From positions 33,086-97,085 of IMG/VR virus record IMGVR_UViG_3300027754_000060: a DNA stretch of 64,000 nucleotides, one strand, 5' to 3'. The stretch comes from a virus. The notes beneath the pieces are model-generated. The model saw only the letters and a program-made list of their open reading frames with translations. It did not search any database and was not told where the DNA came from. The translations under genes and the position numbers were made by a program. Positions 37,901 through 55,928 of the stretch are shown here, one piece after another; position 1 is the first letter of the stretch, and every line of letters starts with the position of its first letter.

Positions 37901-38594
37901 TGGGTTCAGACATTATGCTAAAGTCCATTTGTGGAGGATCATTACCATCTGATTCTGATGACAAAGAAGATATGCTAAAATTAGAATTACTAACAATATT
38001 TTCAGTTAATATCTTCCAAGAGTTTCCATCACATACAAACTTTATATAATTTTTATTATTTTTTAATATAGTCATAATATGACCAATATCGTCCCTAATA
38101 ATCACAGAGTTATTACCACTCATGGATTTTATTTCAATAACTAAATTTTCAGACAAATTACTAGGGGGCAATGAGGTATAAATATCTTGTGATGAAGAAT
38201 CCACTAAAAAGGTAGACTGAATAGGTTCAATAATAAAATCTTTATCTTTAACTATAATATTATTAAAACCAGTATTAAAATTACTAATATTAGCAAATAT
38301 AAAAAACTCACAATTTGACCCAATAAAATTTTCTGGTTCATTATTATTGGAAGATAAGACTATCCTGTGTCTAACGGCTATTATTTGTCCATTATTATCA
38401 TAACTTACTTTTGCTACTCCAACCTCATTCTTATTAGAGCTAGTTTGTCTTGCTAAATAAGGTATATAATATCCTATATGTTTTGAAATTAAAGGATTAT
38501 ACCCAGATATAGTATTGATCTGTGAAAAAGACCCGTCTATAATCTTAAAATTAAAGCCTATAGTATCAAATATTTGCGTTATAATAGAGTTCAT
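34905..38594 (-). CDS. Tail fibre with circularly permuted FGE-sulfatase-like domain (1229 aa)
   Basis: A 1229-residue fibre with AGGG six bases before its ATG. Residues 1-750 are a shaft with Ser/Asn-rich strands and a module shared with the next gene (SVTKGGYLLIKKNL, INFSVYGLG). Residues about 765-855 carry the C-terminal half of an FGE-sulfatase/C-type-lectin domain (SYYGTYDQNGNAAEWIEDS, AAGGSW, NIGFRIAAQ). Residues about 905-1050 carry its N-terminal half (NYRIGKYEVTNSQYVRFLN, GNKPVVFVNYLNSIKYMNWL, YWLPNINEWHKAAYFEP). The order is reversed relative to every FGE protein known to me. The domain is likely a receptor-binding head. The C-terminus (DEVVEQTDQIVVGDTG, CEDCEERNEDTNNC) is acidic and Cys-containing. 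Confidence 0.75.
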   Translation of the reverse strand: MNSIITQIFDTIGFNFKIIDGSFSQINTISGYNPLISKHIGYYIPYLARQTSSNKNEVGVAKVSYDNNGQIIAVRHRIVLSSNNNEPENFIGSNCEFFIFANISNFNTGFNNIIVKDKDFIIEPIQSTFLVDSSSQDIYTSLPPSNLSENLVIEIKSMSGNNSVIIRDDIGHIMTILKNNKNYIKFVCDGNSWKILTENIVSNSNFSISSLSSESDGNDPPQMDFSIMSEPTGDYQALQYNNNGALGSAPIYLSSGNNNSLLFLGSSVSGTARTIIPISGDSPTIFNNTKQNSDFIVNGSGNRNLFFSYDGRLGLNIPSGSRPSTIFHVVNTICQEGFRLENRNACHPANMTLYHKPTGVISNNDVVSRINLSAKNSAGNKIDYSQIESIAYSTDLTKGQLNIIVSSGSSAVKTLQTNADSTILGYSGNNITIQKDGNTSLGYDNSKIQFSSSSSTITSSGLTVNSPTITLNASTIGLGSGADPALACAGTLTVTKLVSSDITMNSIAPSSILVINSANKISAASGLSYSNGTIRTSIPANKILSTTTYGAITGIYDVDDYFLTNQDITWNTYSGRSASIALRQVTLNETVPVAEFSVGDQISIVMSGSTEYRDIASLDISNGIISSMLLNQNVTTNTIVPATILSVTKGGYLLIKKNLSDVGNISTATTNIISIRPETDTVFNTLKKDINFSVYGLGGSPAISVKANVGRSTVPSGTYHVFATQKPQCEPCEISYSATDIPPFAIIVNSGGSGVSSQNPSVNFLNIASGTFSGMVTSVGTNGLPSYYGTYDQNGNAAEWIEDSISSSTNLSQFAAGGSWKTGLDNSIGVTGLRNITSFVRNSGYENIGFRIAAQYGITDIAHISAATGLNLEFTNVTNVNNLPDETNLYLYSDNTYAAYGADDLGVVAKNYRIGKYEVTNSQYVRFLNAVATDTGNDRSLYDPAMSSSSIGGITRTGNPYFYSVKANMGNKPVVFVNYLNSIKYMNWLHNGAILSVDNIAYIDSTINNGAYDILDVGNNSYLINKNTYQKYWLPNINEWHKAAYFEPRTSLISTGSSSVMIKRDNPYPVSAGINAAGQPGTTFANLSVRGWLYADHIVIGDGTVLSPKSLAEFLPSGTFVNPNRNTVVDTDTEMDEVVEQTDQIVVGDTGVNTTKLTGDNRLTDAEIMAQILIALFENRDRQGNSIGIFPPCIGRKTININTALCEDCEERNEDTNNCTNFFADIKPT

Positions 38595-38621: not shown

Positions 38622-41600
38622 TTATATATCAAAGTTCATTGTTTCCGATGAGGATGGGTTAAGAGCCTTAAAATCTTGGAAAGCCTTTTTAATAGAAGAG
38701 GCTACAATATTTGCTATGTCTGGTTTTAACTGATTTAACACTGTGTCTCCATTGATTATAACGTTTATGTCATGTTTTCCTGTTATTTTGATCTCTGGTG
38801 GGATATTTAAAGAGGCCAATGTTGTTGCTATTTTATCTAGTCTAGAGACGAAATTATCTATACTAGATACTGATCCTTGACTACTATCAGATACACCGGA
38901 CGACTTGGGAGATAAACTTTTTAATGTGTCCAGACCTGTTTTAAGCATATCTTTAAAAGTGTTCATAAATGACGTAAAATCAAAAGCTTGACTAGAACCT
39001 TGACTAGGACCTTGACCAGTAGCTGGGACACCGTTGTTAGTGCCATTAAGATAATATCTGGGTACTGATAATCCACCCCTACTTAGATTTCTTACTATGT
39101 CTCCATGACTATATGTTCCACTGTTGATAGCTTTTAATACTGGTAGGTTTTGTTGTGTTGATTGACGATTAACAACAAATTCACCCGGCGTTAGCATAGC
39201 TGGTACAGTGTCTGTGCCTCTTGGCTGAAAATTTATATGACTGCCCTTGCTAGCATAAACAGTTCCTCCTAACGATAGTTGCTGAGCTCCATGTCTACTA
39301 TTCCCTGTGTTAGTTGTCGCCAATAATGTTGACGAGTCGCTGCTAATGCCCTTGCTCTCATTAGCTGCAAATTGGTTGGCTCCTTCATCTCCTGGAAAGC
39401 TTCCTCCCATGCTCCTAATGTCGGTCATGGTGCTATATATCTGATCTTGCTTCGAGGTATACTCTTTTGATCCCATAGCAAGCTGGTCTCTTTGTTCTAT
39501 TTGCTGCTTCAGGACTACTCTGTATGCTTGTCTTTTGTGCAATCTCTCAAATTCAGCATCTAGCTTCTTTTGCCTAGCTGCGTTCTCACTCCGAAGACTC
39601 CATACCTGGGTCTGAACTTTGTAGGGCTCACTTGCTGCTCCAAGTATTGCTCCAGCTGCTAATCCAAGACCCCCAGGAACAATATCATTTCCAATCAGAG
39701 CTCCGCGAGCTGTTGCTTCTAAAGCAGCTACCATTTCATCTTCATTTTCTGATAATGGTCTTCCTATCGCATAGCTCACTGATCCATTCGTGTAAGCTCC
39801 TCCAGAGCTAGCACTACCACTTATAACTCCAAGAACAATCCTGGTGGCTGGGTCCATACCCTGTGCTATCGCTTTTTCATCCATATATCCATCATAAGCG
39901 CCCTGAAGCATCTCTAAATAAGCGGCTCCTTTCTCTGAAACTCCCCCTAAAAATTTCTTTCCTAGAGGACCGCCCCTTAATAACTTAATAGCATCAACAA
40001 AATTAGCTGTGTCAGCTGCCAACTTTACTGCGTCCAATGATTTTGCAGCCATATTTGTTGCCGCCGAGCTATCCTCTCCAGTTTGAGCAGATTCTCCTAG
40101 ATATAGGCCATATGCACCAGTAATCATATCTACCGCACTGGCTAGCGCGTCAAACCCAGGTACATATTTTTCTAGATAATCAAGCGTCATTGGTTTAAGT
40201 AGTCCGTCTTTCATTTTTAACAACAGGGGTTCAAGAGCTGTCTTTGCTAATCCAGAAGCTGTCTCCAAGGCTGCTACTATTCCTCCCCCGTTATAATATC
40301 CTACAGATCCGCCCTTTTGATATCTTCCAGCTCCACTATTAATGCTTTTTAACAAAGGTAAATTTTGCTGAGTAGATGCTCTGTTAACAACAAATTCGCC
40401 TGGTGTTAGCATAGCGGGCACAGTATCTGTTCCCTTTGGTTCAAAGTTTATATGTTGGCCCTTGCTAGCATAAACCATCCCTCCTCTATTAATTAGCTGA
40501 GGTAGTTCTTTTCCTTTCTCGACCTTTTGCTCTGTTCCGTAATCTTTCTGATTCTCGGGTAACAGACCAGTCATACCAGCTATTATTTTTTCCTTACCCC
40601 AAAGTAAACCATAATTATTCCCCGTCCAACGAGCACTCTGTTCTTGGGGCAAGAAATCCTTCAGATAATCTAACATGGTTTTTATGGCATCTTCATTTCC
40701 CACAGCCAGGCTGGGATCTTCCTCCTGTAAAGCTGCAATATTGTCTTTAAGACTCTTGACGGCATCGTCAGTTACTTTGCCATATACCCCAGAGGTATTT
40801 AATATCGTATCCCTAGCCTCATAATAATTTCTTAATGCTGACCCCTCCTTTAGTATCTCTTTAATCTCAAGAGTCCCAGGGTCCCTGTCATTAAAAACAC
40901 GCAGACCATTCTCATCTATACGATTATTATAGTCATTTTCAATAATCCTCATCAGGGCTATTCTATCGAATGGATTGTAAAATATACTTTCAGGACTATA
41001 CGCAAGACCAATCATATCATTTATTGACCTTGCTTTAGGATCTTCCACCCTGGTCTTCTTTACAATATTTCCATTCTCATCTTTATCTAATTTATAAAAA
41101 ATTCCCCTATCTAAGGCCATTTCTGAGGCAGCAGCATCCTCATCAGATAATTTATAATTAGTTTTATTTAATAACTTAGTTTCTACTTCCCTATTTATTA
41201 AATCTCCTAGATTGCCATCGCCGGTCCAATTATGCCAATACTTAGTAGTCATTTCACCTAATCGAATTTTAGAAGGTTCCTCTTCTTTAACGGAAAAAGC
41301 ATTATCATCTGTGCTAAGACCTAGACCATTATAGTATTGTAGCAATCTCTGTAATTGAGCTTCCCCCTTATATAAATCTGTAAAACCAGCTCTATAAGCA
41401 TCTTTTCTTAAGTAAGCAGCAGATTTTTTATCAGTAATGTTTGTCATGTCATCATTAAGAGGACTAAGCACTGACAAAATATCTTCTACGCTTTGAATAT
41501 TAGCTCCTCCGAGCAGCTGCTGATCTTGTACGCCTTGATTGTACAGAGCTCTTGCAATAGTTACTCGTTTAGCATCAGTAAATTTAAACTGCTGACTTTC

Positions 41601-44600
41601 CACCTCTTTTGGAGTGAGAGACTGATCGACTTGGTTATAATTAGTTATAGATGCCTGTTTCTTCGCTTTTTCTATCCGTGCTTTTCTAGAGTCTTCAAAT
41701 GCTTTAGCTTGGAAAGTAAACGGTACCGGCTTATAACTACCGTCCTCACTAGTGACTATAGAGTTCTTAGCTTGTGGAGTTTTTGAAAATAGATTTTTCG
41801 ATAAATCATTTGCCTTCAGATCATCCTCTGTGGCCATTTTGTGAGTTTGCAAGTTATACTGAAATGGAACGCCAAGAGCGGGATCTTCCATTCCAGTCTG
41901 AGCATTATAAACGGGAGTATGGATTTGTAATTCATCTAATAACTCCTTAATGCTTGGATAGACTATCGGATCTCCTGTTAATGGATATTCAATAAATGGA
42001 TTGGAACTATTTACATCTTTTGTTGCTGCCAATCCTTCTGCTACTATATACGACTTTTTATCTTTTCCCCAACTCCTATTGGTGTTATTCCATACTGGGC
42101 TTTCAACTTCTTTATAACCAAATTGAAATTGACCCTGATGATATTCTTTTTGTTGCACTTTAAATATATCAGCTACTTCTGCTCCTGGTTTAAATCCCTC
42201 AAGGGATTTGTCACCCTCCTCTGAGAGATACTGGTTAGCTCTGTCCGATAGCCACCGATAAGTTTGCTCTTTTCCCGTGATATTTGAGTCGGTATCATGC
42301 TCGAACAGAGAGATACCCCGTGGAGGTGGACCTGCTTCATGATAATAAGTACCTGGACCATCTGGCTCCTCGCCTTTATCAAGATATTTTTGTTTTAGTT
42401 TGGTCTCAATATCAGCCCATTTAACGGCCTTGTTAGAGGTTGGTCCCAGAAGAGTTATGGGAAAAGCTGAACCCTCAAACCCCAAGGTATCAAGATTAGC
42501 AAAATCTTTCTCTGAGATTTTTACTTCAGGTATTTTCTCATCATAGAACTCGTCTAGGGCAGTTAGATTTCTCTTGACCCGTATAGATTCGCCAGACTCT
42601 TTATAATTTGCAGATTTTAACTGCTTGACTTCCTCATACTGCTTACTAACGTTATTAAAATAGTCCTTTTGATTGGTTATGAAATCGTCTTTTACATTTG
42701 CAAGAACGATTTCATTCGTTTTTGCTTGATTATCTATATTCCATAAGATTTCTCCTCCTGTATTTACGATTCCGATATTATGAGGAGTTGCTGTATTGCT
42801 CAAGTTTTTTGGACTCAAGTTGTCTTCGTAGAATGTTGCGAATTTCATGCCTGGTGTTTTTGCAGCTAATCCCTTTGCTAAAACCATATTATTACCAAGT
42901 ACACTTAGCATTCCCAGCGGGTTGAAATTATCAGGAGACTGCTTGTAATACTTTAGAGTGGCATCCATAGTTTCATTCTGAGTTTTTAATATGTCTTCTA
43001 TTGTCGGCTCTTTTCTATGTGGATCATATGAATTTGCCCAACTAATTATCTTCTCCATATTTTTCATATATTCTGGCCGATTTTTTTCACTCAGAGGCAC
43101 TCTAGACTTCTCATCACTAATAGTAGCTAATTTCAAATCGCCCATCGATTTCGGACCAAGTATTTTTCCTACAGATTTCTGAGCTGATAGTTTAGTTCCA
43201 TCGCCAACATCTTGGTCTATTTTATTATTGAACTCCCTCACATTGTCATATCCATAACCAGCTGTTGCTTTTACGCCGTCTTGAGTCTTGAGTGCCAAAG
43301 GATTATTTGTCGTTTCCCTTATCAAAGGATTTACAGTAGAAGACGAGTCAATGCTTGTTCTTGCACTCGCTGTCGGGCCAGTAGCGACCCACTGAGCATC
43401 TCCTATTTGAAGAGTTTTTCCGCTGGTATCAGCAATAACACTAGCTGCCGCCTTTTGCACATCCTCATATTTAGGAAAGGGACTTGTAGTCTCTCTAATT
43501 CTTTTGTTCCTATCTAACACATCGGACTTCAAGGCGCTATAATTTTCTATTGCCCCCTCATCAGGAGGTTTACCTTCGAGAGCTGCTACTACTCCTCCCC
43601 TGTCATAATATCCTACAGATCCGCCCTTTTGATATCTTCCAGCTCCACTATTAATGCTTTTTAACAAAGGTAAATTTTGCTGAGTAGCTGATCTATTAAC
43701 AACAAATTCGCCCGGTGTTAGCATAGCAGGTACAGTATCTGTTCCTTTGGGCTGAAAATTAATATGCCTGCCCTCGCTAGCATAAACCATGCCCCCAGAA
43801 GACAAACCACCAGCTCCCTTGTTCTTTTTTACTTCTGCGATAAGATCCTGAATACCCTTATTAATATCATCCAGTTTTTTATCATTATAGCTAATTGCAA
43901 CATCTGTAGTAGCACTACTAAGTTTTATAGCAGCTGTTTCTGCTGTTTGCTCAGCCATAAGCTTGCTTATATTTCCTAATTCTTTATTAGCCTCCGATTG
44001 TAAAGTATTCCCGAGATTATAAGCATCTTGAGCAGCTGTCATTTGAGGATCGTCTTCTGGATTCCTTAAGCTATCCAAGACCTGTTGCATCATAGGATCA
44101 ACACCTATGCCAGCTTCTGATAACTGGCTCTCTAAAACATTCGCTTTTAGCTCCGATTGTTTTTTGCCATTTCCAAGCAAAGGAGCAATAGAATTAAAAT
44201 CTTGTAAACTTTGACTTCTTTGTTCAGATGTTGTTCCTACATTAGCTACGCCTTTCATATTATTATTTAATCTTAACATGCTAGAATTAAATTTTGCTAT
44301 ACCTTCTTGATCTGAAGTTACCAGTCTTTCTATTAAATTTTCTCCAGATTTGCGTTGTTCTTTGATCTCAGACATTCTTGCTAGAGCAGCACTAGCAATA
44401 TCTGTATTTTCAGCCATATCTTTTAGAGCATCATAATTTTCTTTAAGAGCAACATTTGTAGCATTTAGTCTAGTCCTCATCATCTTGTATTCTTCTATTC
44501 CTCCCTGTCCTTTTTCTCTAACCAATGAATCACTAGATTTTTGTTGCTGTTCTCTCGTATCATTTAATCTTCTTACTGATTCTCCAATAGCTGTTGGATC

Positions 44601-47600
44601 AGAGGTTGCTCCTGTTGTTCTAGCCTTAAAAGAATCTTGAGTAATTTTTATTTGGCTATTCATGCTTGGGGAATTTCCCAAAGTTTTATTCAATTCATTA
44701 TCAGCTCTTATTTTAATGTCTGATGCTTTCCTCATTCTGCTATTGCTCTCTACTTGATATCCAGCAGCCTGGTTCATGCTTTCTGAATATTCATTAAGAT
44801 TCTTCTGCCAAAATTCCAAGGCCCTATTAGCCATGTCTTGTGCTCTTTCAGCACTACTAATAGTTTTACTAAAAGCTCCAACATTTTCAGTTAGTTCATC
44901 ATAACTTATAGATGAGTCTTCTCCTCCTTTACCTTTAAAGTCTTTAAAAGCTACTCCTGTTTCTCTAGCTAACTTATCAGCTAATTCTGGTGGAAGGTTT
45001 AAATCTTTAAGAGCTTTGTCTAGATCCATAGTGATATTAGAAGATAGGGATTCGTTACTAGCTGATGGATTCTTTTTAAGGGTCTTATTAACACTGGATA
45101 AAACAGTATCTTGTAGTTTATCTGGAACTTTCAATAAACCCTTAATATTTTCTGAATCGGCTCCAAAAAAAGCTCCAGCTTGACCTCGAGCTCTTTCGTT
45201 ATCTTTCTCAGAATATGCTCCTTGATTTTTCAATATATTTATACTATCTAATGATGTTGCTCCTGATTTAGCATTTCCGCTCAGAGCGTCGTTTGATAAA
45301 CTTAAAGAGCTAGACAATGCATCTAATTCAAAAGATGTTTTATTTATAGCCCCATCCATGTTTTTCAACATTCTGTCTACATTTAGCCCAAAGGTTCTTG
45401 CTGCTTTGTCTAGATCCTCTATAGCCATTTGTCTTTTAACAGCATTAACACTTAGGACAGTTCTTTTTTCTGCTTCTCTGGCTATTATTCCTTCCCTTAT
45501 TTTATTTTTTTCTTCGTCCTTTAGACCCTTTTGCTGCTCCAACAATAATAACTCTTCCTCGATTGCTGGATTAGCTCGAGCTATACTCTCTGCAAAAGTA
45601 CTAACACCACCACTAGAATTTTTTAATTCTCCAAATACTTCGTCAACAGTTTTTTCTCCATTCCGTAGTTCTGCTTCAAAAACTTTGAATATGCCTTCTT
45701 TAACTGGACTAAATGTTGCAGCATTCTTTTTAGCTTGTTCAGGAGCATATTCCTTCATTTTCTTTTGCCTATAGTCGTCTGCGTATGGGTTTAACCCGTA
45801 ATAACTAGAAGATTTAAGATAACCCATAGTACCTTCTTTTTGCAATATTTGAGATCTTTCAGATGCTTGTTTTGTATTTCCTGAGCCGAGAGCATCAAAA
45901 AGATTAACCCACATAGCATCAGGAACTTGAACATCTAAATTTATTAGTCCCTTGGCAGCATCTCCTGCTGTACCTAGTTGAGACTTAGCTTTATTCAAAG
46001 CTCCAATATCTGTATTATCTTTGGCGAAATCATTAAGTGCTTCGCTAGCTTTTTCTAGAGAGGTCTCTAGATTTTTAGTCTGTAGTGCTTTATCAAAAGC
46101 TTTTGCTGCATTGTGAGCTGCCATAAAAGCAGCAGCTATACCAACAGCAGCAGCAACAGCAATAGCTCCAGCTGCTACGTATGGGTTTGCCAGCATAGGT
46201 AGCAGCTTCTGAGCTGCGGAACCCATTACTCCTGGCATCTTCGACATCTCCGTTAGGCCTTTCGCTGCAGTATCCATTCCTGTACGTATTGCAGTGAATG
46301 CACCAGTACCCGCAGATGCTCCTGCTGAAATAGCAGCTCCAGCCACTTTAGATCCTCTACCAGCTTCAGGACCACCAGAAATAAAAGATCCAAGGTTATC
46401 TCCTAAAACAGCAACCAAAGACGAATATTTTATCATCTTAGCAGATGTTGCCTGTACAGCATCACTCATTTGTTTCATAGATCTATCAATACGGATATCT
46501 CTTGCTGAAACCCCCAGTGTTTTTAAGCTGTCTGCAGATAGTCCTGTTTGAGTGGACATTTCTTGTATAGCTTTATCGTAAGCAGCCATGTCGCTAGTCA
46601 TGTACCCCACCATCTCTTTAAAGCCTGTGGTTTGAAATACATCTTCCATGCTCTTATTATTCTCAGCAGCACTCATCATTTCATTAACTTGATCAGCAAT
46701 CTTAGCTGCGTTTTTTGGGTCTTCCGCCTTAGAGCCAGCAGCTGTAGTAAGGGTATCTGTCAGTTTCTTTCTTGTGTCATCAACATCCTTTTGATATGCC
46801 TCTGCTGTATCGGCACCCCCTGCTATAGCAGCAGCTTTTTGCCCTGGTCCTAATCTAGTAGCTGCTAAAAGCGCCTCTCCTTTTACATTAGTGTTGATCG
46901 CAGTAGCACTATCTGCTTTTATCCTATGTGCTCTCTCCAAAATACTTTGTTGAATATTGAGCTTCATTTGGTCAGCAGTTAATCCAGCTTGTCTTCCTAA
47001 TTCAGCTACAGCCTTTAGAGTATCTGCATTTGCCGTTCCACCAGTAATAAATCTCTGAACATATCCTCCACTAGCAAATCCCTGAACATTCCCAACGCTT
47101 CCTCCTTTAGCAAATCCCTGAGCCTTGTCAGCATGATTCATTTTTTCTAGTTTGTTATAACCAATACTCTCAGCAGCTTTTTTATTAATAACAAATTCAC
47201 CCGGAGTTAATAGGGCGGGCACCGTATCTGATGTTGCTCCACCCATAGCAAATCTTTCAACCAAGTTTGGATTTTTAATATCTGATGGACTCTTGGTATA
47301 TCCAGTTTGCAATACCCATGCTTCATCACTATGAGGAGGCCATGTTTTAGGATCTTCAGAAGGAAACTTAGTTTGATCAAACCATTTTGACCCATGATAC
47401 CAATTTTCTGGAGCTAATGGGGTTTTATTAACATCTCCACGATTTTTAAAATAATATTTCCATACATTATATGCTGATGAACTAACACTATGTCTATCAG
47501 AGACTAATTGATTTCCACTTTCTGTTACCCCCTCCATAACGGCATCGTATAATTTAGGTCCGTATCCACTAGTAGCGCTAGAACTTTGAACAGAAAACAA

Positions 47601-50600
47601 AGGAGCTGATCCTAGTTCTTGCAGCCTGTCTGCTACAACCTCACCACTAGCATTAGCATTGTCCAAATACTTAGCGCTAACTCTTCCTGGTTTAACCGTT
47701 AATCCTATTTTTTCATCTTTTCTAATCTTTTTCGCTTCTGCTGCTTCTGCTACTCCGCCCACAGCAAATCTTCGAGCTTGTGCCATACCCCCTGCCATAA
47801 ATCCCGATGGTCCAACAGGGCCCATCATTCTGGTGGCCTTATCTGCATGGTCTAGTACAAACTCCCTTTTATGATTTGCAGAGTTTCGAGCAAATTGACT
47901 CATTCCTCCTTCTTTACCAACATTATATTTCTGTAATTCATTATTTAGAACATCCATATAGTATATTCTAAGATCTGACAAGATATCGCTATTATCTCGT
48001 ATATAAAAGTCTAACTCTTCAGGAGCATCAGTAAACCATTTTCCTCTAGCTGCTTTGGGACTAGAGCTTGTAGCACTCTCGCCCATCAGCCGTTCCTTTT
48101 TTTCAGGAGTCATTTCTGTTCCCATATACCTCACTGTTTTTGGAGTAATATGATCCCTTGGAACATCTCCAACTCGATAAAGTCTAGTCTGCCCCTCGTC
48201 TGCTGGTTTTAGTTTTGATTTTAAATCTAGGAATTGTTTAAAAAAAACATCGGATTCTGATGGAGGCTTGGGAATATTGCTAATAGAAGGTTTTGGAGGG
48301 GGAGGGGGAGGTGGAGGCATAATAGGAGACCCCGGCCTATTAACTGCTGCTACTACTGGTTTTCGTGGTGGAGGTGGGGGAGGAGGTGGAGGAGGTGGAG
48401 GAGGGGCATGGAGAACCATTGATCCTGCTGCATATCGCTGAACTTTTGCTGCTCCACCAATAGCGAACTTTTTGGATGGTGGTGGAGGTGGTGGAAGTGG
48501 AGGACCGAGTTTTTTAGGTGCGGGTGGTGGAAGCGACGGACCAAGTTTTTTAGGTGCGGGTGGTGGAAGTGGCGGACCGAGTTTTTTAGGCGGAGGTGGA
48601 GGCATAGTAGGAGAACCCGGTTTATTAACTGCTGCTACTTTATTATCATAATTTTGCGTTGGCAATGAAGAAGAATTTCTTTGATAAAAAGCTGCAAGAT
48701 CATGCAAATATTTTTGTCTTTGTGGTACACTAGCACTACTTAGAAAACCATTAGCAGCAAATGCAGCGCTTCGTAATTTAGATTCTTCTGCGTCAAGACT
48801 TGTGCCCTTAAATTTTCTTCCACTGTTAACCCAATTAGGGTCTGTTATTGGTATCCTGGCAGATGGAGGTACAGCTTCCCCTCCTGCTGCATATCCCCTT
48901 GTTGCTCTGTTAACTGATACCATATCTTCAGCTAGCGATGGTGTTGGAGTATAAGCAGCATCTGAAGGCCCCTTTAATTTTGCTGCTAAAGCTAATTGAG
49001 CAGGAGTAGATGTCTTCCCCGGTTCTTTCAAAGATCCTAATAGTGCCTTAGAATCAATTTTCATTCCAGCCTTAGATTTTTTTTGCTCAATTATTTTTGC
49101 AAGATATGTTTTAAATTCTGGGATAGTATATCCCATAGTATCTCCATACTTTTTAGCTTGGTCAAACTCAAAATCTTTTAGACCCGTACCCTTTTGGAGA
49201 TCATATACTTCTCCACCAAGAGCAAGATGTAGACCATATTTCTCAGGATCTTGTTCTGCTAATTTACGCATAAGAGTAAAAGGTTCAAAGCCAGCGTGAC
49301 TTTGTATTTTCTTTTTACGTTCTCTAAGAGCATCAACCTGGTCTCCCATCATTTTATATGCTGGATCTTTTTCCATCTGCTTTCTATCCAGTCTGGCTGG
49401 AAAATTAGCTAGTTCTGCATCAATATCTGCAAGAGATAAGTCCTTTCTCGACTTAACCCCCGCCATAATTTCAGGCAATACTTTTTCTCGATTTTGTAGT
49501 TGAGTTAGATTCTTTTGCACTATATCAAATACAGCAGGAGACAAGAATTTTCTCATAGCTGGAATATCACCACTCAATATAGCTGCTCTAGTTGCTGTTC
49601 CACTTATCTCGTCTTCTCCTCCCTCAGCAGTAGTTCTCTTGCCCATTGGGGCTATCCTATATCCTTTGTCCTTATATTTCTGAAGCTGTTGCTCACTTTT
49701 TTCCGGTCCGGCCATATATACACTACTAGAATAGTCAGGACGAACAAAATGCCTTCTACCATCCTCGCCAGGCTTTCCCTCAAAAATATCAGGCATCCCA
49801 AAATCCTGATTTGCTTTATTAACTATAGATTTACTAAAAGCTGCCTTAGCTAATATCGTTCTAAAATCTTGATCAAAATTAACAGTTCTAAAATCATGAG
49901 CATCAGGATCTTTTGCTGTTATTGCTTCATTACTGCCCACCAAAACTGCAAAGTCTTCTTCGCTGAATCCAAGAGCTTTTGCCGCATCCAAGATAGACTC
50001 ATGACCCAGTGTGGTTGGAGCAAAACCCCCTTTTATTACTGCTAATGATTTTGTTTCTGCTGTTGGTCCTTGTAGTCTTTCTCCTTTTTCGTTCTTTAGC
50101 TTAAAACCCCCAACATCAACACCCATAGTCCTTAACTTTTTCGGATCTATCTCAGAAGCTAGCATCCCTTGCATTGATCCACTATCAGTAGGGGCTCCAG
50201 CAGTAGTTCCTGGACTTCTACCAAAAAGAGTATCCTTAAGAGGATCTTTGTTAGCATCTCTTGAACCCCTTCTTCTTTTGATCTCATCCCTTTGTTCTTT
50301 TGTTGAAGATTCTAAACTATATACTTTGTCTGCTGATGTTAAATATCCACTCAGTTTTTCTGGTGTTACAGTAGCAGAAACATCTACAATTTGTGAAACT
50401 GAAGCTATGTCTTCTGGAGTTAAAATAGCACTTCTTGTTGTTTTTCTTAAACTAGCATTATCTGCCTCCGATGATTTAGAACCCCCCAACATAAGAGAAC
50501 TTTTACCCGATCCTGCTACTCCCACTATAGCACTGAGACGATCTAATGATCCCTCTCCTCTAGCAGTAGCAGCTAATTTAGACAGATGCATTTTGTAATC

Positions 50601-53600
50601 AGACACTTTCTTCATGCCCAACTTACTCATCTCTGCACCAACGACAGCTGAATTTTCTGGATTTGCTAAAACATCACTATCTATATATCCAATATTTCTT
50701 TGAGCAGTAGCCTCAGATTTTTGAGTATTATTTTTAGCACCCACAGATGCGCCCACAGATGCGGCCACAGCCTTTTTTACAGAAACCTTAGTTGCTGCTC
50801 CTCCTCCAGGAACCTTAGTTGCTGCTCCTCCTCCAGAACCTTTTGTTCCAAAGACCCCGTCTCTATTTTCTAGAAAACTTAAAACCTCTGCCCTATACTT
50901 ACTTATTGAGGCACTATCTATTGTTCTTTTAACATCTGTGGGAATATTATCTTCCATTCCAAAGAATTGAGCAGCAGGCCCCAACCCGGATGGAAAGTCT
51001 ATAGACATCGCTCCCTTTGTAGCAGCTTTAGCTCCTAGTTGTGTTAAAATCTGTTGTATAGTATATCCTTCCATTTCTGCTTTGCCTGTTATCGCAAGAT
51101 CTTCTTGAGACATAGGAGTAACAGGAGTCAGATAATGAGCAGTTTTATTAGCTTTCCTAGCTGCTAAAATATTCTGTAAATTATCATCTATTAAATCTTC
51201 ATCATATCCTAAGTTTTTTGCTTTAGCTTGTGCTACGTCATCTCCTGTCATTCCAGGAGTTGATACTCCAGTTACTCTATCAGCACCGATTGGAATACCT
51301 AATCTAGTAAGCGTAGAAGCAATTAAATCAGCTGATGCTTGAGGTCTTGCTGATAATACTCTTATCTTTTTTATAAAGTTTGGATCCTTGTCTAATATTT
51401 CTTTTAGATGAGTTCCTATGGGGGATTTTAATTTAGCGTTTTGTAATGCTTTAGAAACTGCTACCAGATCAGAATATGCTGCAATGTCTGGTTGCCCCTT
51501 ATCATTAAATATGTCTGCTCCACTAACTAGTGTCTCATCAAAATCAATAGCTAAATTTTTTCCAGATCCTAAGAATTCTTCAGCTTGTATAGATTCGGCC
51601 ATATTTTTTGTTGAAGAAGCATTTACTCCCTCCATCTGTTTTTGCAAACTAGCACTCGTCTTTTCAGAAAGTATTCCTATTTTAGTATAAATAGATTTTC
51701 CATTAATCATCTCTGGACCAATAGACATATGTTTGGTTTTTCCTATTAATCCGACTAATCCAAAAATCTCAGATCCAGCGATTGCTTTTTGAGCTATAGC
51801 CTCTTCATCTGCAAAACTTTCAATCACAAGACGGTTCATAAGATCATCGTGCTTATTGGGCACTCTTGATACAAAATCTTTGTCTCTTATGCCTGTACCA
51901 TCTAATCTGCCTTCGTTAACTAATCTTCTATACATATCTCTAAGTGGAATCTTAGCTTCTCCCATTTTTGCCTTAGCTACTCCACCAATACCAAGTTGTT
52001 GAATATCCATTGAATAGAATGGATCATGATCAACGTCATATGATGGATCAGTCCAAGGAACAGCCATAGACATATTTGCAGAATTATAATTAGCAGAAGC
52101 TTTTAAGATTTTTAATGATGATGATCTAGGAAGAATAACTTCTTGTTCTGCTCTTTGCGTTTCTTGAATTCTTTGCTTATGAGGTTCAGCAAGCATCTTT
52201 TCTGGAAGAGCAGCATTAACATCAATACCAGTAGCATCCTTTTTAGTTTTGATATCTAAAAATCCTCGTTGACTAAAATTCATGCCAATTGTTTTTGCTT
52301 TTGAAGTTGATAAAAACCCAGGAAGAGCAAAAGTACTACCAGCGGCACTATCAACATCTTTCTGTGATCTTAATTGATTTCCAATTTGTTTTTTAATAAT
52401 ATCTAATCTAGTTTCTCCAATACCAGTATAAACATTGTCTGGAACTTTAGTTTTTGGTGAAGAATCTAGCTTTTTAATAGTTTCTTTAATGCTCTCCATA
52501 TAAGCTTTATCAGACTCAGAAACTTGCCCCGGTGGACCATAACCCAGATTTCCATCATCTGGATAGGCTAAATGAGTATTAATATCACGAGACCTATTTT
52601 GATAGGTTGCTATAGCATCAACAGGATAAACCGCACCTGCGTCTTTGAATTTTTGAATCCTTCCACCCGCTTTTAATCCCAAAGAATTTTTATAGGCTTC
52701 GTCTATTTCTATGAGAATAGCGTCCCCAGCGTTAACACTAGGATCAAGATCAATCTTATTGGTAAAACCGACCTCCGCAGGCGATTGCTGCTGTGTTTCC
52801 ATCAAATATCTTAATTTTTTAGCATACATAGTCTCATCAGAAGTTCTCTCGTCTCTAAATCTAGTTTCTATCGGAGTTGCAGCAACTGCTGTAAAATCCA
52901 TTGGATCATATTGACCCCCTGTTTTTGAATATCCTGGATATCCCATAATTGGCAGGTATTCGCCCATGAAATCTTCAAATGCAAAACCTTTGCTGAGTTG
53001 ATACTTCTTCTCGTGTCTCTTATCTGTAAAGTTTGTCGCTTGCGCCGCTTGTCTGATATCTGTTGCAAAATCTTGGTTTATAGTCTCTTTGTTTGCATAA
53101 AACTTGTCTATGTCTGTTTTGTCTATCGTGATACGCTGAATATTTCCCTTTACGATATCTTCATTTTGTATATTTGGATCTTCTGAATAATTCTTGTCTG
53201 TAAGGTAACTGCCACTTTTTGCCTGCTTAATCTCTTCTATTTTTTTGCCCTGATTAGCATAGACAGGTGCCACTCCTCCTCTAGCAAATTTTCTAACAAA
53301 ACCCCCACCAGCTAATTGAACGGTTCCTTTATCCCACGTTCTACCAGTTGTATAGTCCTTATCCATAGTAAATCCCTTTGCGAGATATCTACCAAATCCT
53401 CCGCTTTGTGTCTTTACTACATTATCAACTGTAAAGTCCTTTAATTGACCCTCTAGCTCGTTCTTACCCAGTTCAGCTATTTGGCCCGCTGTTGCTCCTT
53501 CAAAAACTTTCTCGTTTCTTGGAATTTTATATCCCGATGCTGTCTCTGGATATTTTTCTGGTCTATTATTTAGCTTCTGTATATTTTGGGCTTTAGATTG

Positions 53601-55928
53601 TGATACAAAACTATCTTTCTTGATCTCATATGTATCAAAATCATTAACTCTAAAGTTTGCTTTAAATTCTTTTCCATCTGGGATAACAGTAGCTGAAAAT
53701 GTATCTCCGTCTGATGCTACTGCTGTATCTTTTACAACTTTGCTAATTCCTACTGTATTTGCTAGACCTCCACCAGCAAACTTTTGAATCCTGCCTCCAC
53801 CAGCATATCCTTGAATACTTCCACCCCTATTCTTATTCATCTTATGCAAGTTACTAGCACCCAGAGTTTCCACAGCTTTTTTACGAATAACAAATTCCCC
53901 CGGTTCTAACATTGCTGGCACAGTATCTCCATTACCTTGACCAGGTACTACTCCTCCTCTGGCAAATTTTCTAACAAAACCCCCACTATTTAATCCAGTA
54001 CCAGGTGGAAATTGAAGATTGTCTATAATACTAGATAATCTATCTATGCTTGCTGTATTTGTAGACAAAGAAACAGTATTACTCTCAAGAGCAATAATAT
54101 AACTATTTATAGCAGTCATACCATATGTTAAAGAAACAATATTATTTGATAAAGTATCTATAGCAGAAGTTAAAGTTCCCATAGCTGCTGAAGAAGCGAT
54201 TATATTAGATGACAGAGAACTAACATTATTTGATAAAGCATCTATAGCAGCAGTTAAGGCGCTATTATCTACTGAAGAACCACTGCCACCAGTAACTAAT
54301 CCACTCAGCCTATTTCCCATATTTCTAACTGCTGATGATCTACCACTAGAATCATCTTCACCCGATCCTTTGTCTGATTTTTTTCCTAATCCTCCAACAA
54401 ATCCACTACCAAACTCAACCATCGCAGACATTCCCTTACTAACTGCTAGAATAGCTAAGATAGGAAGAAGACCCTTGAGACTACCTGCTACAGTTATTAA
54501 AGCACTAGCAAATCCTAAAGCTGTTTTAGCAAGAGTTTGAAATGTGTTACTGGATCCTACAGTTCTCACCAAGGATAAAAATTCTTCTCTAACTTTCATC
54601 ATTTGATTAGCTAATGATAACTGTGCAATACCAGCATCTTTAGCTAATGATCCCTGACCCTGTTGAGCTATTTTTAAAGCATCTTGAGCTGTTGCAAATT
54701 CATGAATCAAAGGAATAACTTTACCAATTTGACGAAATCCACCAAGCTGTTCCACAATCTCACTAAATTTTAAATCTCTAGGATCAATGCTACCTAGTCC
54801 TTCGCTTAAAAGTTGTATAGCTTTGTATGCTCCAACAAACTTACCTTCATTATCTGTTAATACAACTCCAAATTCCTTTAGAGCATCTATAGTATCTCTT
54901 CTTTGTATTCTTGTAAAAATAGTTCTTAAACCCGTAGCAATAGTTTCAGCGCTTTCTCTAGTTGTTGCTCTAACACTAGTAAATACTGCGATAAATTCAT
55001 TTAAAGCGTCCGACCCCTCACTAACTCCTTTGCTAGCTGAAGCAAATACTCCTCCAGTCCTTTGAATAGCTGTAATAATATCACTTGCTTCAACAGCAAA
55101 AGCAGCAGACACAGCATTAATAGATCCTAGAGCACTTTCCAGATCTCCCGCACCAATTTGAAACTGTTTCATTAAAGCAATAGATCCCTCTACAGTTTCA
55201 TTCATACTATCAAAACTTGGAGCAAGATCAGTAAGGGCCAAAGCTCGTAATGCTCTTTCAGTATCCTTGGCGCTTAAACCAGCTTGAGCAAGAGTTCCAG
55301 CCACGCCAATTAATTCAGTAGAAGCTACTCCTAATGTTGTGGACAATGTTGTAATTTCTGACGACAAAGATCCTAACTCTTGTCCATTTTTTCCAGTAAC
55401 TTGTTGAAGCTTAACTAGTTCTTTGTCAAACTGAACAAATGTTGCTAGGCCACTTTTAAGAGCATTAGTAACGCTAAAGATAATAGTAGTAACAGCTGAA
55501 AAAGCAGCAAATCTTTTAACAGCTAGAGCGGATTGTCTACCAAACTCTTCGATCTGAGTACTAGATGCCGAGATTTTTTGAGCAGTATTAGTTTGAGCTT
55601 TTGCTAAATTATTCGACGCTGTTGCTGCAGAATTTAAAGCACTAGAGGTAGAAGCCGATGCTTTATTTGCAGCTCCCATAGCTCCAATAAATGACTTAAT
55701 AGCTCTTTCAGCATCAGTAGCATTGGTTTTTGTTATAGCTAGAGTATTGTTGAGGGTTTGTAGAGCAGAAGTTAACTGGGTCGCATTTCTTATTGACGAT
55801 GCATCGACCTGTATTTTAATATCGCCAGTAATAGTACCAAGTTGTCTTTTTATATCAGATACTATATTTCCAATATTAGAGGGGCCCCTAAGATTTAACT
55901 GTGCAGTTAGATTAAATGCTTGTGCCAT
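38622..55928 (-). CDS. Giant tape measure protein with embedded enzyme domains (5768 aa)
   Basis: A 5768-residue protein downstream of the chaperone-like genes. Residues about 1-500 match the tape-measure family core (FVQFDKELVKLQQVTG, IITAIQRTGGVFASASKG). Later parts carry SNase-like (about 730-870), nuclease-like (905-1090), ART-like (1103-1280), HAD (1455-1600), P-loop (about 1801), nucleotidyltransferase (1955-2125), Pro-rich (2440-2545), ART-like (2570-2700) and GNAT-like (2735-2850) segments. Hinge motifs GTDTVPAMLTPGEFVVNR or relatives recur at about 665, 2900, 4062, 5165 and 5572. A hydrophobic stretch lies at about 3250-3272. If it were all helix it would span roughly 0.86 micrometre, but the globular inserts make tail length unpredictable. 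Best call is a tape measure that doubles as a carrier of host-directed enzymes. Confidence 0.85.
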   Translation of the reverse strand: MAQAFNLTAQLNLRGPSNIGNIVSDIKRQLGTITGDIKIQVDASSIRNATQLTSALQTLNNTLAITKTNATDAERAIKSFIGAMGAANKASASTSSALNSAATASNNLAKAQTNTAQKISASSTQIEEFGRQSALAVKRFAAFSAVTTIIFSVTNALKSGLATFVQFDKELVKLQQVTGKNGQELGSLSSEITTLSTTLGVASTELIGVAGTLAQAGLSAKDTERALRALALTDLAPSFDSMNETVEGSIALMKQFQIGAGDLESALGSINAVSAAFAVEASDIITAIQRTGGVFASASKGVSEGSDALNEFIAVFTSVRATTRESAETIATGLRTIFTRIQRRDTIDALKEFGVVLTDNEGKFVGAYKAIQLLSEGLGSIDPRDLKFSEIVEQLGGFRQIGKVIPLIHEFATAQDALKIAQQGQGSLAKDAGIAQLSLANQMMKVREEFLSLVRTVGSSNTFQTLAKTALGFASALITVAGSLKGLLPILAILAVSKGMSAMVEFGSGFVGGLGKKSDKGSGEDDSSGRSSAVRNMGNRLSGLVTGGSGSSVDNSALTAAIDALSNNVSSLSSNIIASSAAMGTLTSAIDTLSNNIVSLTYGMTAINSYIIALESNTVSLSTNTASIDRLSSIIDNLQFPPGTGLNSGGFVRKFARGGVVPGQGNGDTVPAMLEPGEFVIRKKAVETLGASNLHKMNKNRGGSIQGYAGGGRIQKFAGGGLANTVGISKVVKDTAVASDGDTFSATVIPDGKEFKANFRVNDFDTYEIKKDSFVSQSKAQNIQKLNNRPEKYPETASGYKIPRNEKVFEGATAGQIAELGKNELEGQLKDFTVDNVVKTQSGGFGRYLAKGFTMDKDYTTGRTWDKGTVQLAGGGFVRKFARGGVAPVYANQGKKIEEIKQAKSGSYLTDKNYSEDPNIQNEDIVKGNIQRITIDKTDIDKFYANKETINQDFATDIRQAAQATNFTDKRHEKKYQLSKGFAFEDFMGEYLPIMGYPGYSKTGGQYDPMDFTAVAATPIETRFRDERTSDETMYAKKLRYLMETQQQSPAEVGFTNKIDLDPSVNAGDAILIEIDEAYKNSLGLKAGGRIQKFKDAGAVYPVDAIATYQNRSRDINTHLAYPDDGNLGYGPPGQVSESDKAYMESIKETIKKLDSSPKTKVPDNVYTGIGETRLDIIKKQIGNQLRSQKDVDSAAGSTFALPGFLSTSKAKTIGMNFSQRGFLDIKTKKDATGIDVNAALPEKMLAEPHKQRIQETQRAEQEVILPRSSSLKILKASANYNSANMSMAVPWTDPSYDVDHDPFYSMDIQQLGIGGVAKAKMGEAKIPLRDMYRRLVNEGRLDGTGIRDKDFVSRVPNKHDDLMNRLVIESFADEEAIAQKAIAGSEIFGLVGLIGKTKHMSIGPEMINGKSIYTKIGILSEKTSASLQKQMEGVNASSTKNMAESIQAEEFLGSGKNLAIDFDETLVSGADIFNDKGQPDIAAYSDLVAVSKALQNAKLKSPIGTHLKEILDKDPNFIKKIRVLSARPQASADLIASTLTRLGIPIGADRVTGVSTPGMTGDDVAQAKAKNLGYDEDLIDDNLQNILAARKANKTAHYLTPVTPMSQEDLAITGKAEMEGYTIQQILTQLGAKAATKGAMSIDFPSGLGPAAQFFGMEDNIPTDVKRTIDSASISKYRAEVLSFLENRDGVFGTKGSGGGAATKVPGGGAATKVSVKKAVAASVGASVGAKNNTQKSEATAQRNIGYIDSDVLANPENSAVVGAEMSKLGMKKVSDYKMHLSKLAATARGEGSLDRLSAIVGVAGSGKSSLMLGGSKSSEADNASLRKTTRSAILTPEDIASVSQIVDVSATVTPEKLSGYLTSADKVYSLESSTKEQRDEIKRRRGSRDANKDPLKDTLFGRSPGTTAGAPTDSGSMQGMLASEIDPKKLRTMGVDVGGFKLKNEKGERLQGPTAETKSLAVIKGGFAPTTLGHESILDAAKALGFSEEDFAVLVGSNEAITAKDPDAHDFRTVNFDQDFRTILAKAAFSKSIVNKANQDFGMPDIFEGKPGEDGRRHFVRPDYSSSVYMAGPEKSEQQLQKYKDKGYRIAPMGKRTTAEGGEDEISGTATRAAILSGDIPAMRKFLSPAVFDIVQKNLTQLQNREKVLPEIMAGVKSRKDLSLADIDAELANFPARLDRKQMEKDPAYKMMGDQVDALRERKKKIQSHAGFEPFTLMRKLAEQDPEKYGLHLALGGEVYDLQKGTGLKDFEFDQAKKYGDTMGYTIPEFKTYLAKIIEQKKSKAGMKIDSKALLGSLKEPGKTSTPAQLALAAKLKGPSDAAYTPTPSLAEDMVSVNRATRGYAAGGEAVPPSARIPITDPNWVNSGRKFKGTSLDAEESKLRSAAFAANGFLSSASVPQRQKYLHDLAAFYQRNSSSLPTQNYDNKVAAVNKPGSPTMPPPPPKKLGPPLPPPAPKKLGPSLPPPAPKKLGPPLPPPPPPSKKFAIGGAAKVQRYAAGSMVLHAPPPPPPPPPPPPPRKPVVAAVNRPGSPIMPPPPPPPPKPSISNIPKPPSESDVFFKQFLDLKSKLKPADEGQTRLYRVGDVPRDHITPKTVRYMGTEMTPEKKERLMGESATSSSPKAARGKWFTDAPEELDFYIRDNSDILSDLRIYYMDVLNNELQKYNVGKEGGMSQFARNSANHKREFVLDHADKATRMMGPVGPSGFMAGGMAQARRFAVGGVAEAAEAKKIRKDEKIGLTVKPGRVSAKYLDNANASGEVVADRLQELGSAPLFSVQSSSATSGYGPKLYDAVMEGVTESGNQLVSDRHSVSSSAYNVWKYYFKNRGDVNKTPLAPENWYHGSKWFDQTKFPSEDPKTWPPHSDEAWVLQTGYTKSPSDIKNPNLVERFAMGGATSDTVPALLTPGEFVINKKAAESIGYNKLEKMNHADKAQGFAKGGSVGNVQGFASGGYVQRFITGGTANADTLKAVAELGRQAGLTADQMKLNIQQSILERAHRIKADSATAINTNVKGEALLAATRLGPGQKAAAIAGGADTAEAYQKDVDDTRKKLTDTLTTAAGSKAEDPKNAAKIADQVNEMMSAAENNKSMEDVFQTTGFKEMVGYMTSDMAAYDKAIQEMSTQTGLSADSLKTLGVSARDIRIDRSMKQMSDAVQATSAKMIKYSSLVAVLGDNLGSFISGGPEAGRGSKVAGAAISAGASAGTGAFTAIRTGMDTAAKGLTEMSKMPGVMGSAAQKLLPMLANPYVAAGAIAVAAAVGIAAAFMAAHNAAKAFDKALQTKNLETSLEKASEALNDFAKDNTDIGALNKAKSQLGTAGDAAKGLINLDVQVPDAMWVNLFDALGSGNTKQASERSQILQKEGTMGYLKSSSYYGLNPYADDYRQKKMKEYAPEQAKKNAATFSPVKEGIFKVFEAELRNGEKTVDEVFGELKNSSGGVSTFAESIARANPAIEEELLLLEQQKGLKDEEKNKIREGIIAREAEKRTVLSVNAVKRQMAIEDLDKAARTFGLNVDRMLKNMDGAINKTSFELDALSSSLSLSNDALSGNAKSGATSLDSINILKNQGAYSEKDNERARGQAGAFFGADSENIKGLLKVPDKLQDTVLSSVNKTLKKNPSASNESLSSNITMDLDKALKDLNLPPELADKLARETGVAFKDFKGKGGEDSSISYDELTENVGAFSKTISSAERAQDMANRALEFWQKNLNEYSESMNQAAGYQVESNSRMRKASDIKIRADNELNKTLGNSPSMNSQIKITQDSFKARTTGATSDPTAIGESVRRLNDTREQQQKSSDSLVREKGQGGIEEYKMMRTRLNATNVALKENYDALKDMAENTDIASAALARMSEIKEQRKSGENLIERLVTSDQEGIAKFNSSMLRLNNNMKGVANVGTTSEQRSQSLQDFNSIAPLLGNGKKQSELKANVLESQLSEAGIGVDPMMQQVLDSLRNPEDDPQMTAAQDAYNLGNTLQSEANKELGNISKLMAEQTAETAAIKLSSATTDVAISYNDKKLDDINKGIQDLIAEVKKNKGAGGLSSGGMVYASEGRHINFQPKGTDTVPAMLTPGEFVVNRSATQQNLPLLKSINSGAGRYQKGGSVGYYDRGGVVAALEGKPPDEGAIENYSALKSDVLDRNKRIRETTSPFPKYEDVQKAAASVIADTSGKTLQIGDAQWVATGPTASARTSIDSSSTVNPLIRETTNNPLALKTQDGVKATAGYGYDNVREFNNKIDQDVGDGTKLSAQKSVGKILGPKSMGDLKLATISDEKSRVPLSEKNRPEYMKNMEKIISWANSYDPHRKEPTIEDILKTQNETMDATLKYYKQSPDNFNPLGMLSVLGNNMVLAKGLAAKTPGMKFATFYEDNLSPKNLSNTATPHNIGIVNTGGEILWNIDNQAKTNEIVLANVKDDFITNQKDYFNNVSKQYEEVKQLKSANYKESGESIRVKRNLTALDEFYDEKIPEVKISEKDFANLDTLGFEGSAFPITLLGPTSNKAVKWADIETKLKQKYLDKGEEPDGPGTYYHEAGPPPRGISLFEHDTDSNITGKEQTYRWLSDRANQYLSEEGDKSLEGFKPGAEVADIFKVQQKEYHQGQFQFGYKEVESPVWNNTNRSWGKDKKSYIVAEGLAATKDVNSSNPFIEYPLTGDPIVYPSIKELLDELQIHTPVYNAQTGMEDPALGVPFQYNLQTHKMATEDDLKANDLSKNLFSKTPQAKNSIVTSEDGSYKPVPFTFQAKAFEDSRKARIEKAKKQASITNYNQVDQSLTPKEVESQQFKFTDAKRVTIARALYNQGVQDQQLLGGANIQSVEDILSVLSPLNDDMTNITDKKSAAYLRKDAYRAGFTDLYKGEAQLQRLLQYYNGLGLSTDDNAFSVKEEEPSKIRLGEMTTKYWHNWTGDGNLGDLINREVETKLLNKTNYKLSDEDAAASEMALDRGIFYKLDKDENGNIVKKTRVEDPKARSINDMIGLAYSPESIFYNPFDRIALMRIIENDYNNRIDENGLRVFNDRDPGTLEIKEILKEGSALRNYYEARDTILNTSGVYGKVTDDAVKSLKDNIAALQEEDPSLAVGNEDAIKTMLDYLKDFLPQEQSARWTGNNYGLLWGKEKIIAGMTGLLPENQKDYGTEQKVEKGKELPQLINRGGMVYASKGQHINFEPKGTDTVPAMLTPGEFVVNRASTQQNLPLLKSINSGAGRYQKGGSVGYYNGGGIVAALETASGLAKTALEPLLLKMKDGLLKPMTLDYLEKYVPGFDALASAVDMITGAYGLYLGESAQTGEDSSAATNMAAKSLDAVKLAADTANFVDAIKLLRGGPLGKKFLGGVSEKGAAYLEMLQGAYDGYMDEKAIAQGMDPATRIVLGVISGSASSGGAYTNGSVSYAIGRPLSENEDEMVAALEATARGALIGNDIVPGGLGLAAGAILGAASEPYKVQTQVWSLRSENAARQKKLDAEFERLHKRQAYRVVLKQQIEQRDQLAMGSKEYTSKQDQIYSTMTDIRSMGGSFPGDEGANQFAANESKGISSDSSTLLATTNTGNSRHGAQQLSLGGTVYASKGSHINFQPRGTDTVPAMLTPGEFVVNRQSTQQNLPVLKAINSGTYSHGDIVRNLSRGGLSVPRYYLNGTNNGVPATGQGPSQGSSQAFDFTSFMNTFKDMLKTGLDTLKSLSPKSSGVSDSSQGSVSSIDNFVSRLDKIATTLASLNIPPEIKITGKHDINVIINGDTVLNQLKPDIANIVASSIKKAFQDFKALNPSSSETMNFDI
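40272..40453. repeat. Long direct repeat, copy A (tape measure hinge)
   Basis: This stretch, coding a hinge motif plus 'LPLLKSINSGAGRYQKGG', is near-identical to 43576-43757. Bases 40293-40375 are identical over 83 bases to 43605-43687. The two copies flank a 3.1-kb block of the tape measure gene. A more diverged third copy lies at about 39112-39232. Confidence 0.9.
43576..43757. repeat. Long direct repeat, copy B (tape measure hinge)
   Basis: Partner of the repeat at 40272-40453 with 83 identical bases (43605-43687) and only scattered differences outside. Same orientation, same reading frame, so recombination between the copies would delete or exchange the intervening block and leave the frame intact. 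Confidence 0.9.
48494..48600. repeat. 36-bp tandem repeat in the Pro-rich linker of the tape measure
   Basis: Three near-identical 36-base units encode KKLGPPLPPPAP-type repeats (about residues 2444-2480), followed by a poly-Pro tract (plus strand about 48370-48410). They form a flexible linker between the nucleotidyltransferase-like and second ART-like segments and are prone to length change. Confidence 0.85.

Follow-up and report, generated by a model that had tools for sequence, protein, structure and literature searches.

Phages and conjugative elements encode polyvalent proteins, which were described by Iyer et al. (2017) as early injected multi-enzyme proteins (PMC5512222). Many unrelated enzyme domains share one polypeptide in these proteins, with ADP-ribosyltransferases (ARTs), GNAT domains, nucleases and zincins among them; they are encoded with virion genes, are packaged in the capsid or delivered by conjugation, and are believed to be injected early (PMC5512222). 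Tape measure proteins with one enzyme segment are also known, namely mt3 of phage TM4 (PMC1796659) and YomI of SPbeta, which is annotated as a transglycosylase, and each carries a single cell-wall hydrolase. Exchangeable enzyme modules are joined to a conserved virion domain in the MuF polymorphic toxins of temperate phages (PMC5576092), and the Sle1/Tme effectors of contractile injection systems are tape-measure-type proteins with a variable functional part that are ejected from a tail-like particle (PMC13277306). Here we analyze a 64,000-nucleotide stretch of viral DNA (the window), which forms positions 33,086 to 97,085 of the incomplete 97,085-bp IMG/VR record IMGVR_UViG_3300027754_000060. 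It encodes a 5768-residue tape measure protein that holds a string of enzyme modules in an internal "cargo bay" bounded by hinge motifs.

Like the polyvalent proteins, the window protein combines several disparate enzyme domains (ART, HAD, nucleotidyltransferase and SNase-like), although the zincin metallopeptidase, a frequent but not required theme of that group, is absent. It differs in that the chassis is a tape measure and that segments are swapped at hinge motifs. In contrast to the one-enzyme tape measures, it carries several non-hydrolase modules that are exchanged between phages. MuF toxins are head proteins with a variable C-terminal toxin, whereas here a multi-module internal bay is enclosed by two conserved parts, and the Pfam, PHROG and NCBIfam matches of the window tape measure include no MuF family. 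Sle1/Tme belongs to a bacterial nanomachine and has a single C-terminal functional region, unlike the internal multi-enzyme bay of this phage virion protein. The term tape measure is absent from the polyvalent-protein paper (PMC5512222) and from a survey of viral NAD/ADP-ribose systems, and no description of a multi-enzyme tape measure was found in the literature searched, where coverage is incomplete and absence is no proof. An earlier reading of the window from its letters alone (the sequence-only reading) had named this gene as a candidate undescribed system. That wording is too strong, because injected multi-enzyme proteins and one-enzyme tape measures have been described. What appears to be new, in that we have not found it described, is the combination of several enzymes in a tape measure with the exchange of cassettes.

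The gene is a single uninterrupted open reading frame (ORF) on the minus strand, with the coordinates and length given in the sequence-only reading, and an ordinary tape-measure core is indeed present at its N-terminus. TIGR01760 tape_meas_TP901 of NCBIfam matches this end of the protein with 86.4 bits (cut-off 28.8). The ORF also matches Pfam PhageMin_Tail PF10145 (78.8 bits, cut-off 33.2) and several PHROG tape-measure families, and hydrophobic segments at residues 470-498 and 3242-3275 fit the type. These results show that the 5768-residue ORF is a true tape measure protein. Searches of deposited phages with window segments matched only distant YomI-type cores, and the core is distantly related to SPbeta YomI. 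Assembly artefact was considered as the source of the unusual length and was rejected, because tape measures of 5646 and 5886 residues are encoded in independent records.

The motif DTVPAxLxPGEFVxxxxA occurs five times in the protein, with PGEF at residues 676, 2909, 4072, 5176 and 5581, and these copies are the hinges that had been proposed to join its segments. Between the core and a conserved helical shaft lie approximately 2,200 residues of enzyme modules, comprising SNase-like, ART, HAD, P-loop/nucleotidyltransferase and GNAT-like modules together with two nuclease-like segments. To the segments already named, our analysis added PD-(D/E)XK-like segments (residues 908-1098 and flanking the HAD domain), a P-loop before the nucleotidyltransferase, a possible ART at residues 2580-2725 and a unique region at residues 4110-5160.

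When single sequences of the core or of the HAD/nucleotidyltransferase region were used as queries, IMG/VR gave no match. Kin were found via their DnaE polymerase, and an alignment of the cores of their tape measures yielded 360 IMG/VR relatives. The best 80 were taken and near-duplicates removed, which left 68 tape measures for comparison, the window's included. Core and shaft are common to nearly all of these, and the modules are found in subsets and in varying order: HAD/nuclease-like in 42 (partial matches included), P-loop/nucleotidyltransferase in 18, GNAT in 12, ART in 11, the 908-1098 type in 11 and SNase in 7. Relatives have blocks homologous to the modules at different places and in a different order, and the modules therefore are not chance matches. 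Bay length, measured as the start of shaft homology minus 540, ranges from 207 to 2621 residues across relatives (2505 in the window protein), and hinges 2 and 3 lie 1066-1323 residues apart in 17 of 19 cases.

Comparison of related phages revealed exchange of segments between hinges, for which the sequence-only reading had suggested looking. Identity between the tape measures of L144 and L146 is 95.3% up to and including hinge 1 and 29.7% in the bay; the two agree at 73 of 73 residues in hinge 2 and are 52.6% identical in the shaft. Identities in the core, in the bay and after it are 96, 28 and 74% for L120 and L152, and 90, 24 and 83% for L109 and L114; hinge 1 is the exchange border in all three pairs. 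L077 and L135 show the pattern of L144 and L146 less sharply. A bay tract of 3458 nucleotides is 93% identical at the DNA level between L161 and L096, whose cores share 57% protein identity, and is a transfer between lineages. On a tree of the cores, the numbers of tape measures with a module and of changes were 9 and 9 for the ART, 8 and 8 for the 908-1098 type, 11 and 9 for GNAT, 5 and 4 for SNase, 23 and 15 for HAD, and 15 and 7 for P-loop/nucleotidyltransferase. Gain and loss of modules is thus nearly independent of the core tree, and modules are swapped at hinges. The window gene itself takes part in this exchange. Its GNAT module is 81.5% identical to that of L256, compared to 57.8% for the core and 51% for P-loop/nucleotidyltransferase, and the small shared module "Mid" has 82% DNA identity. 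Mid and GNAT are adjacent in L256; in the window they are separated by an insertion of a proline-rich and ART2-like stretch.

The modules are also maintained as proteins. The ratio of nonsynonymous to synonymous substitution (dN/dS) of the cargo is 0.05-0.12, near the 0.05 of the core, which indicates purifying selection. Moreover, the four modules tested are nearly confined to tape measures. The matches in IMG/VR lay inside tape measure ORFs, counting contig-end fragments with a core or hinge, in 24 of 24 cases for P-loop/nucleotidyltransferase, 56 of 56 for HAD, 37 of 38 for GNAT and 16 of 17 for ART. The single GNAT match outside this group is on a fragment truncated at a contig end, and that of ART is a small separate ORF. 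Among 50,697 deposited phage records, none matched the representatives of P-loop/nucleotidyltransferase, HAD and GNAT.

Several enzyme folds lie between the hinges, as had been claimed, and the evidence for their identities is uneven, coming from a Pfam match, predicted folds, motifs or relatives according to the module. The ART is the one enzyme domain that Pfam sees directly (PF03496 ADPrib_exo_Tox at residues ~1143-1283, E = 1.5e-10, 41.2 bits, cut-off 23.4), and relative L092 passes the same cut-off. STS and ExE motifs are kept in an alignment of 11 ARTs, with S75, S77, E129 and E131 invariant. Families for the other modules were built from relatives' sequences. All seven members of the SNase family A2 keep DGDT, R, D, E and GR, and so the catalytic D, R, E, R set is present; the Pfam SNase cut-off is passed only in relative L078 (22.4 versus 21). 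Pfam scans of whole bays in 12 relatives gave extra matches to ART and SNase only, and when profiles of the SNase, HAD, 908-1098 and GNAT families were compared with PDB sequences, no meaningful match emerged. Multi-module alignments A8, A10 and A11 were dropped, since 908-1098 and ART fragments were misplaced in them, and structure models cover alignments A12 and A13 only.

The HAD and nucleotidyltransferase identities are assigned from predicted folds and motifs. Without Pfam or PDB sequence matches, the HAD module shows all four HAD motifs (DFDxTL, ARP, K, DD and D...K invariant across 24 sequences) and is predicted to have the Rossmann-like fold. Its AlphaFold2 model has a mean predicted local distance difference test score of 78, mostly 90+ in the HAD part, and Foldseek matched it to HAD hydrolases and the T4 Pnkp phosphatase (E ~3e-3 to 3e-2, probability 0.99); whole-query TM-scores are low because the model includes other parts. 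The P-loop/nucleotidyltransferase module carries GxAGSGKS as well as the motifs PxTxGH and ISxTxxR, and the latter two point to an HxGH nucleotidyltransferase of the NadD/CoaD class (P-x-(H/T)-x-GH). It has weak Pfam and PDB sequence matches and a high-confidence AlphaFold2 model, for which the top Foldseek matches were CoaD (E = 1.5e-4, TM-score 0.60 to target) and NadD enzymes. The GNAT-like model contains four strands and a helix; its matches in a viral fold library are N-acetyltransferases with probability 0.91-0.93 but E > 0.1, and the GxG of motif A (Q/R-x-x-G-x-G/A) is retained. For the 908-1098 segment, which is assigned by the E...D...(D/E)xK motif of its family only, there was no Pfam match and no PDB sequence match. 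Residues 2400-2725 have no homologue among the 68 tape measures and no PDB match, and the likeness of residues 2580-2725 to a second ART was seen by eye only and is unsupported. The predicted structures agree with PDB folds for two of the named modules, HAD and nucleotidyltransferase, the gene did not turn out to be something other than the tape measure, and no named segment was seen to be plain helical shaft.

Features of the tape measure gene in the window
Feature	Residues	Position	Strand	Basis
Tape measure protein gene		38622..55928	(-)	single unbroken ORF, 5768 residues
N-terminal core (PhageMin_Tail 191-384)	1-520	54369..55928	(-)	55-62% identity with 9 kin
Hinge 1 (DTVPAMLEPGEFVIRKKA), upstream bay border	660-705	53814..53951	(-)	motif
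SNase-like module	711-873	53310..53798	(-)	catalytic residues and relative's Pfam match
PD-(D/E)XK-like segment	908-1098	52635..53207	(-)	motif in family A3 only
ADP-ribosyltransferase-like module	1133-1318	51975..52532	(-)	PF03496
HAD phosphatase-like domain (~1458-1599) inside PD-(D/E)XK-like frame	1389-1693	50850..51764	(-)	
P-loop and nucleotidyltransferase module	1746-2234	49227..50693	(-)	motifs, model, Foldseek
Mid, small shared module	2271-2350	48879..49118	(-)	in 7 of 68 tape measures
Proline-rich linker and ART2-like segment	2400-2725	47754..48731	(-)	part of insertion relative to L256
GNAT-like module	2736-2897	47238..47723	(-)	common to 12 tape measures
Hinge 2 (DTVPALLTPGEFVINKKAA), downstream bay border	2893-2940	47109..47252	(-)	motif
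Conserved shaft, including hydrophobic 3242-3275	3045-4060	43749..46796	(-)	homologous in nearly all 68 tape measures
Unique region between hinges 3 and 4	4110-5160	40449..43601	(-)	
Hinges 4 and 5 and conserved C-terminus	5160-5768	38625..40451	(-)	motif, 68-tape-measure comparison

Related phages gain, lose and swap modules, and the tape measure therefore probably delivers an enzyme kit with the viral DNA. Tape measures exit the tail tube and share in DNA entry (PMC13277306, PMC1796659), and injected internal proteins of T4 counter host restriction (PMC12373910). It is because of this biology and that of polyvalent proteins, together with the present data, that we regard the bay as an entry-delivered payload; the proposal of the sequence-only reading, that the protein would enter together with the DNA and modify the host, fits known tape-measure and polyvalent-protein biology. 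We consider it likely that the protein doubles as a tape measure and a carrier of several enzymes, akin to polyvalent effectors. We also lean, if only slightly, towards a broader picture, in which the tape measure of a large uncultured lineage is a rebuildable vehicle: cassettes would be recombined into the hinge-bounded bay, so that each phage has its own payload, delivered by the tail in few copies per virion.

For packing, injection, refolding, activity and targets, we infer the following course. The core and helical shaft would perform the ordinary tasks of tail assembly, length determination and DNA entry, and the bay between two hinge copies would hold the string of small enzyme modules, which relatives swap as cassettes with the conserved hinge DNA as the probable places of recombination. 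The protein would be packed in the tail tube and most likely exit before the DNA or together with it. Once inside the cell, the modules would regain their folds and be active during the first minutes of infection. Their activities would be nuclease-like (SNase) and modify nucleotides or proteins (HAD phosphatase, NadD/CoaD-type adenylyltransferase, ART-like, GNAT-like), either against host defences or in redirecting the host. An NAD/CoA-type nucleotidyltransferase beside an ART-like module could point to manipulation of nucleotides or NAD, a field in which phage counter-defences exist; the substrate is a guess.

Several points weigh against this proposal. Folded domains of 20-50 kDa would be hard to fit in the tail tube and so would have to be carried unfolded or elsewhere. 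On this point, an enzyme motif within the TM4 tape measure adds to tail length (PMC1796659), which suggests that such segments may travel stretched in the tube, and the near-constant shaft suggests that the bay is not the ruler. The first-motif Arg of R-S-E is absent from 11 of 11 aligned ARTs, which have Ser/Thr after an invariant Tyr, and the 908-1098 segment of the window has E-x-R where relatives carry E-x-K with the catalytic Lys. Catalytic activity of both is doubtful without these residues, and the two may be inactive or altered in the window copy. Both PD-(D/E)XK assignments, at 908-1098 and flanking HAD, are motifs only, the GNAT-like model is of only moderate confidence and its motif A lacks the usual Q/R. 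In addition, the core tree was built quickly and many of its forks are weak, and presence counts of modules vary with profile sensitivity.

We also considered whether the protein could be a polyprotein, with modules cut out before or during tail assembly to act late in the producing cell or be packaged separately, while core and shaft stay in the tail. The nearly constant shaft and inconstant bay are as expected if the bay lies outside the ruler, and HExxH (zincin-like) motifs of several types are found in the bays of approximately 20 relatives, zincins being thought to process polyvalent proteins (PMC5512222). However, the window tape measure has no HExxH motif, complete relatives keep core, bay and shaft in one frame, and late-acting enzymes would not need fusion to a tape measure; we therefore judge this improbable. 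Rather less probable still is that the modules act at the envelope or while the tail is assembled, with targets such as periplasmic molecules or tail proteins. Known tape measure enzyme domains are peptidoglycan hydrolases, as in TM4 mt3 (PMC1796659), but none was recognised in the window tape measure, and nucleotidyltransferase, P-loop and ART modules require ATP- or NAD-type substrates, which are cytoplasmic. In a third alternative, most modules would be remnants without activity that act as spacers or provide variable surfaces by which the tape measure escapes recognition by the host. This is very unlikely despite the hypervariable bay and the missing residues of the window ART and 908-1098 segment, given the cargo dN/dS and the catalytic motifs among invariant columns of the HAD, nucleotidyltransferase and SNase families.

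Outside the enzyme bay, the region between hinges 3 and 4 has no homologue among the 68 tape measures, in Pfam or in PDB, and may be a second bay. Among relatives, L004 (record G001) has a DNA polymerase half that is 100% identical to that of the window virus, and of the tape measure it shows only a short core fragment with two internal stop codons. In L003 (10845-15212), DnaE is split over two ORFs with a 231-residue ORF between them; the halves continue one PHROG family, possibly reflecting an intein- or homing-endonuclease-like interruption. Cores of the window's tape measure family also occur in bins labelled Alphaproteobacteria, Chitinophagia, SAR202 and Verrucomicrobiales (L166-L174), which are probably misbinned phage contigs. 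These bacterial matches are metagenome bins of mixed phyla, and therefore no host was assigned from them.

The gene adjoining the tape measure (34905-38594, minus strand) encodes 1229 residues and includes an FGE-sulfatase domain (PF03781, E = 5.2e-12). Tail proteins that are diversified by retroelements often have this fold. A diversity-generating retroelement was considered for this reason, and no reverse transcriptase was found within this incomplete record. Two giant adjacent ORFs on the minus strand (7451-15607 and 15610-21993, 2718 and 2127 residues) have no significant Pfam match and presumably encode proteins of the tail or its fibres. Upstream of the tail genes, a 332-residue protein (62005-63003, minus strand) carries a proprotein convertase P-domain (PF01483, E = 4.3e-9).

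Delivery of an enzyme kit by the tape measure, if true, would mean that the tail as well as the capsid can carry injected multi-enzyme effectors. It raises the physical question of how enzymes that fold could pass through a tail tube, and whether the cargo contributes to tail length. It would also mean that up to ~2,600 residues of exchangeable enzymes can be accommodated in a tape measure, and that these phages come with their own inventory of proteins for early infection, most of which resemble nothing in deposited phages.
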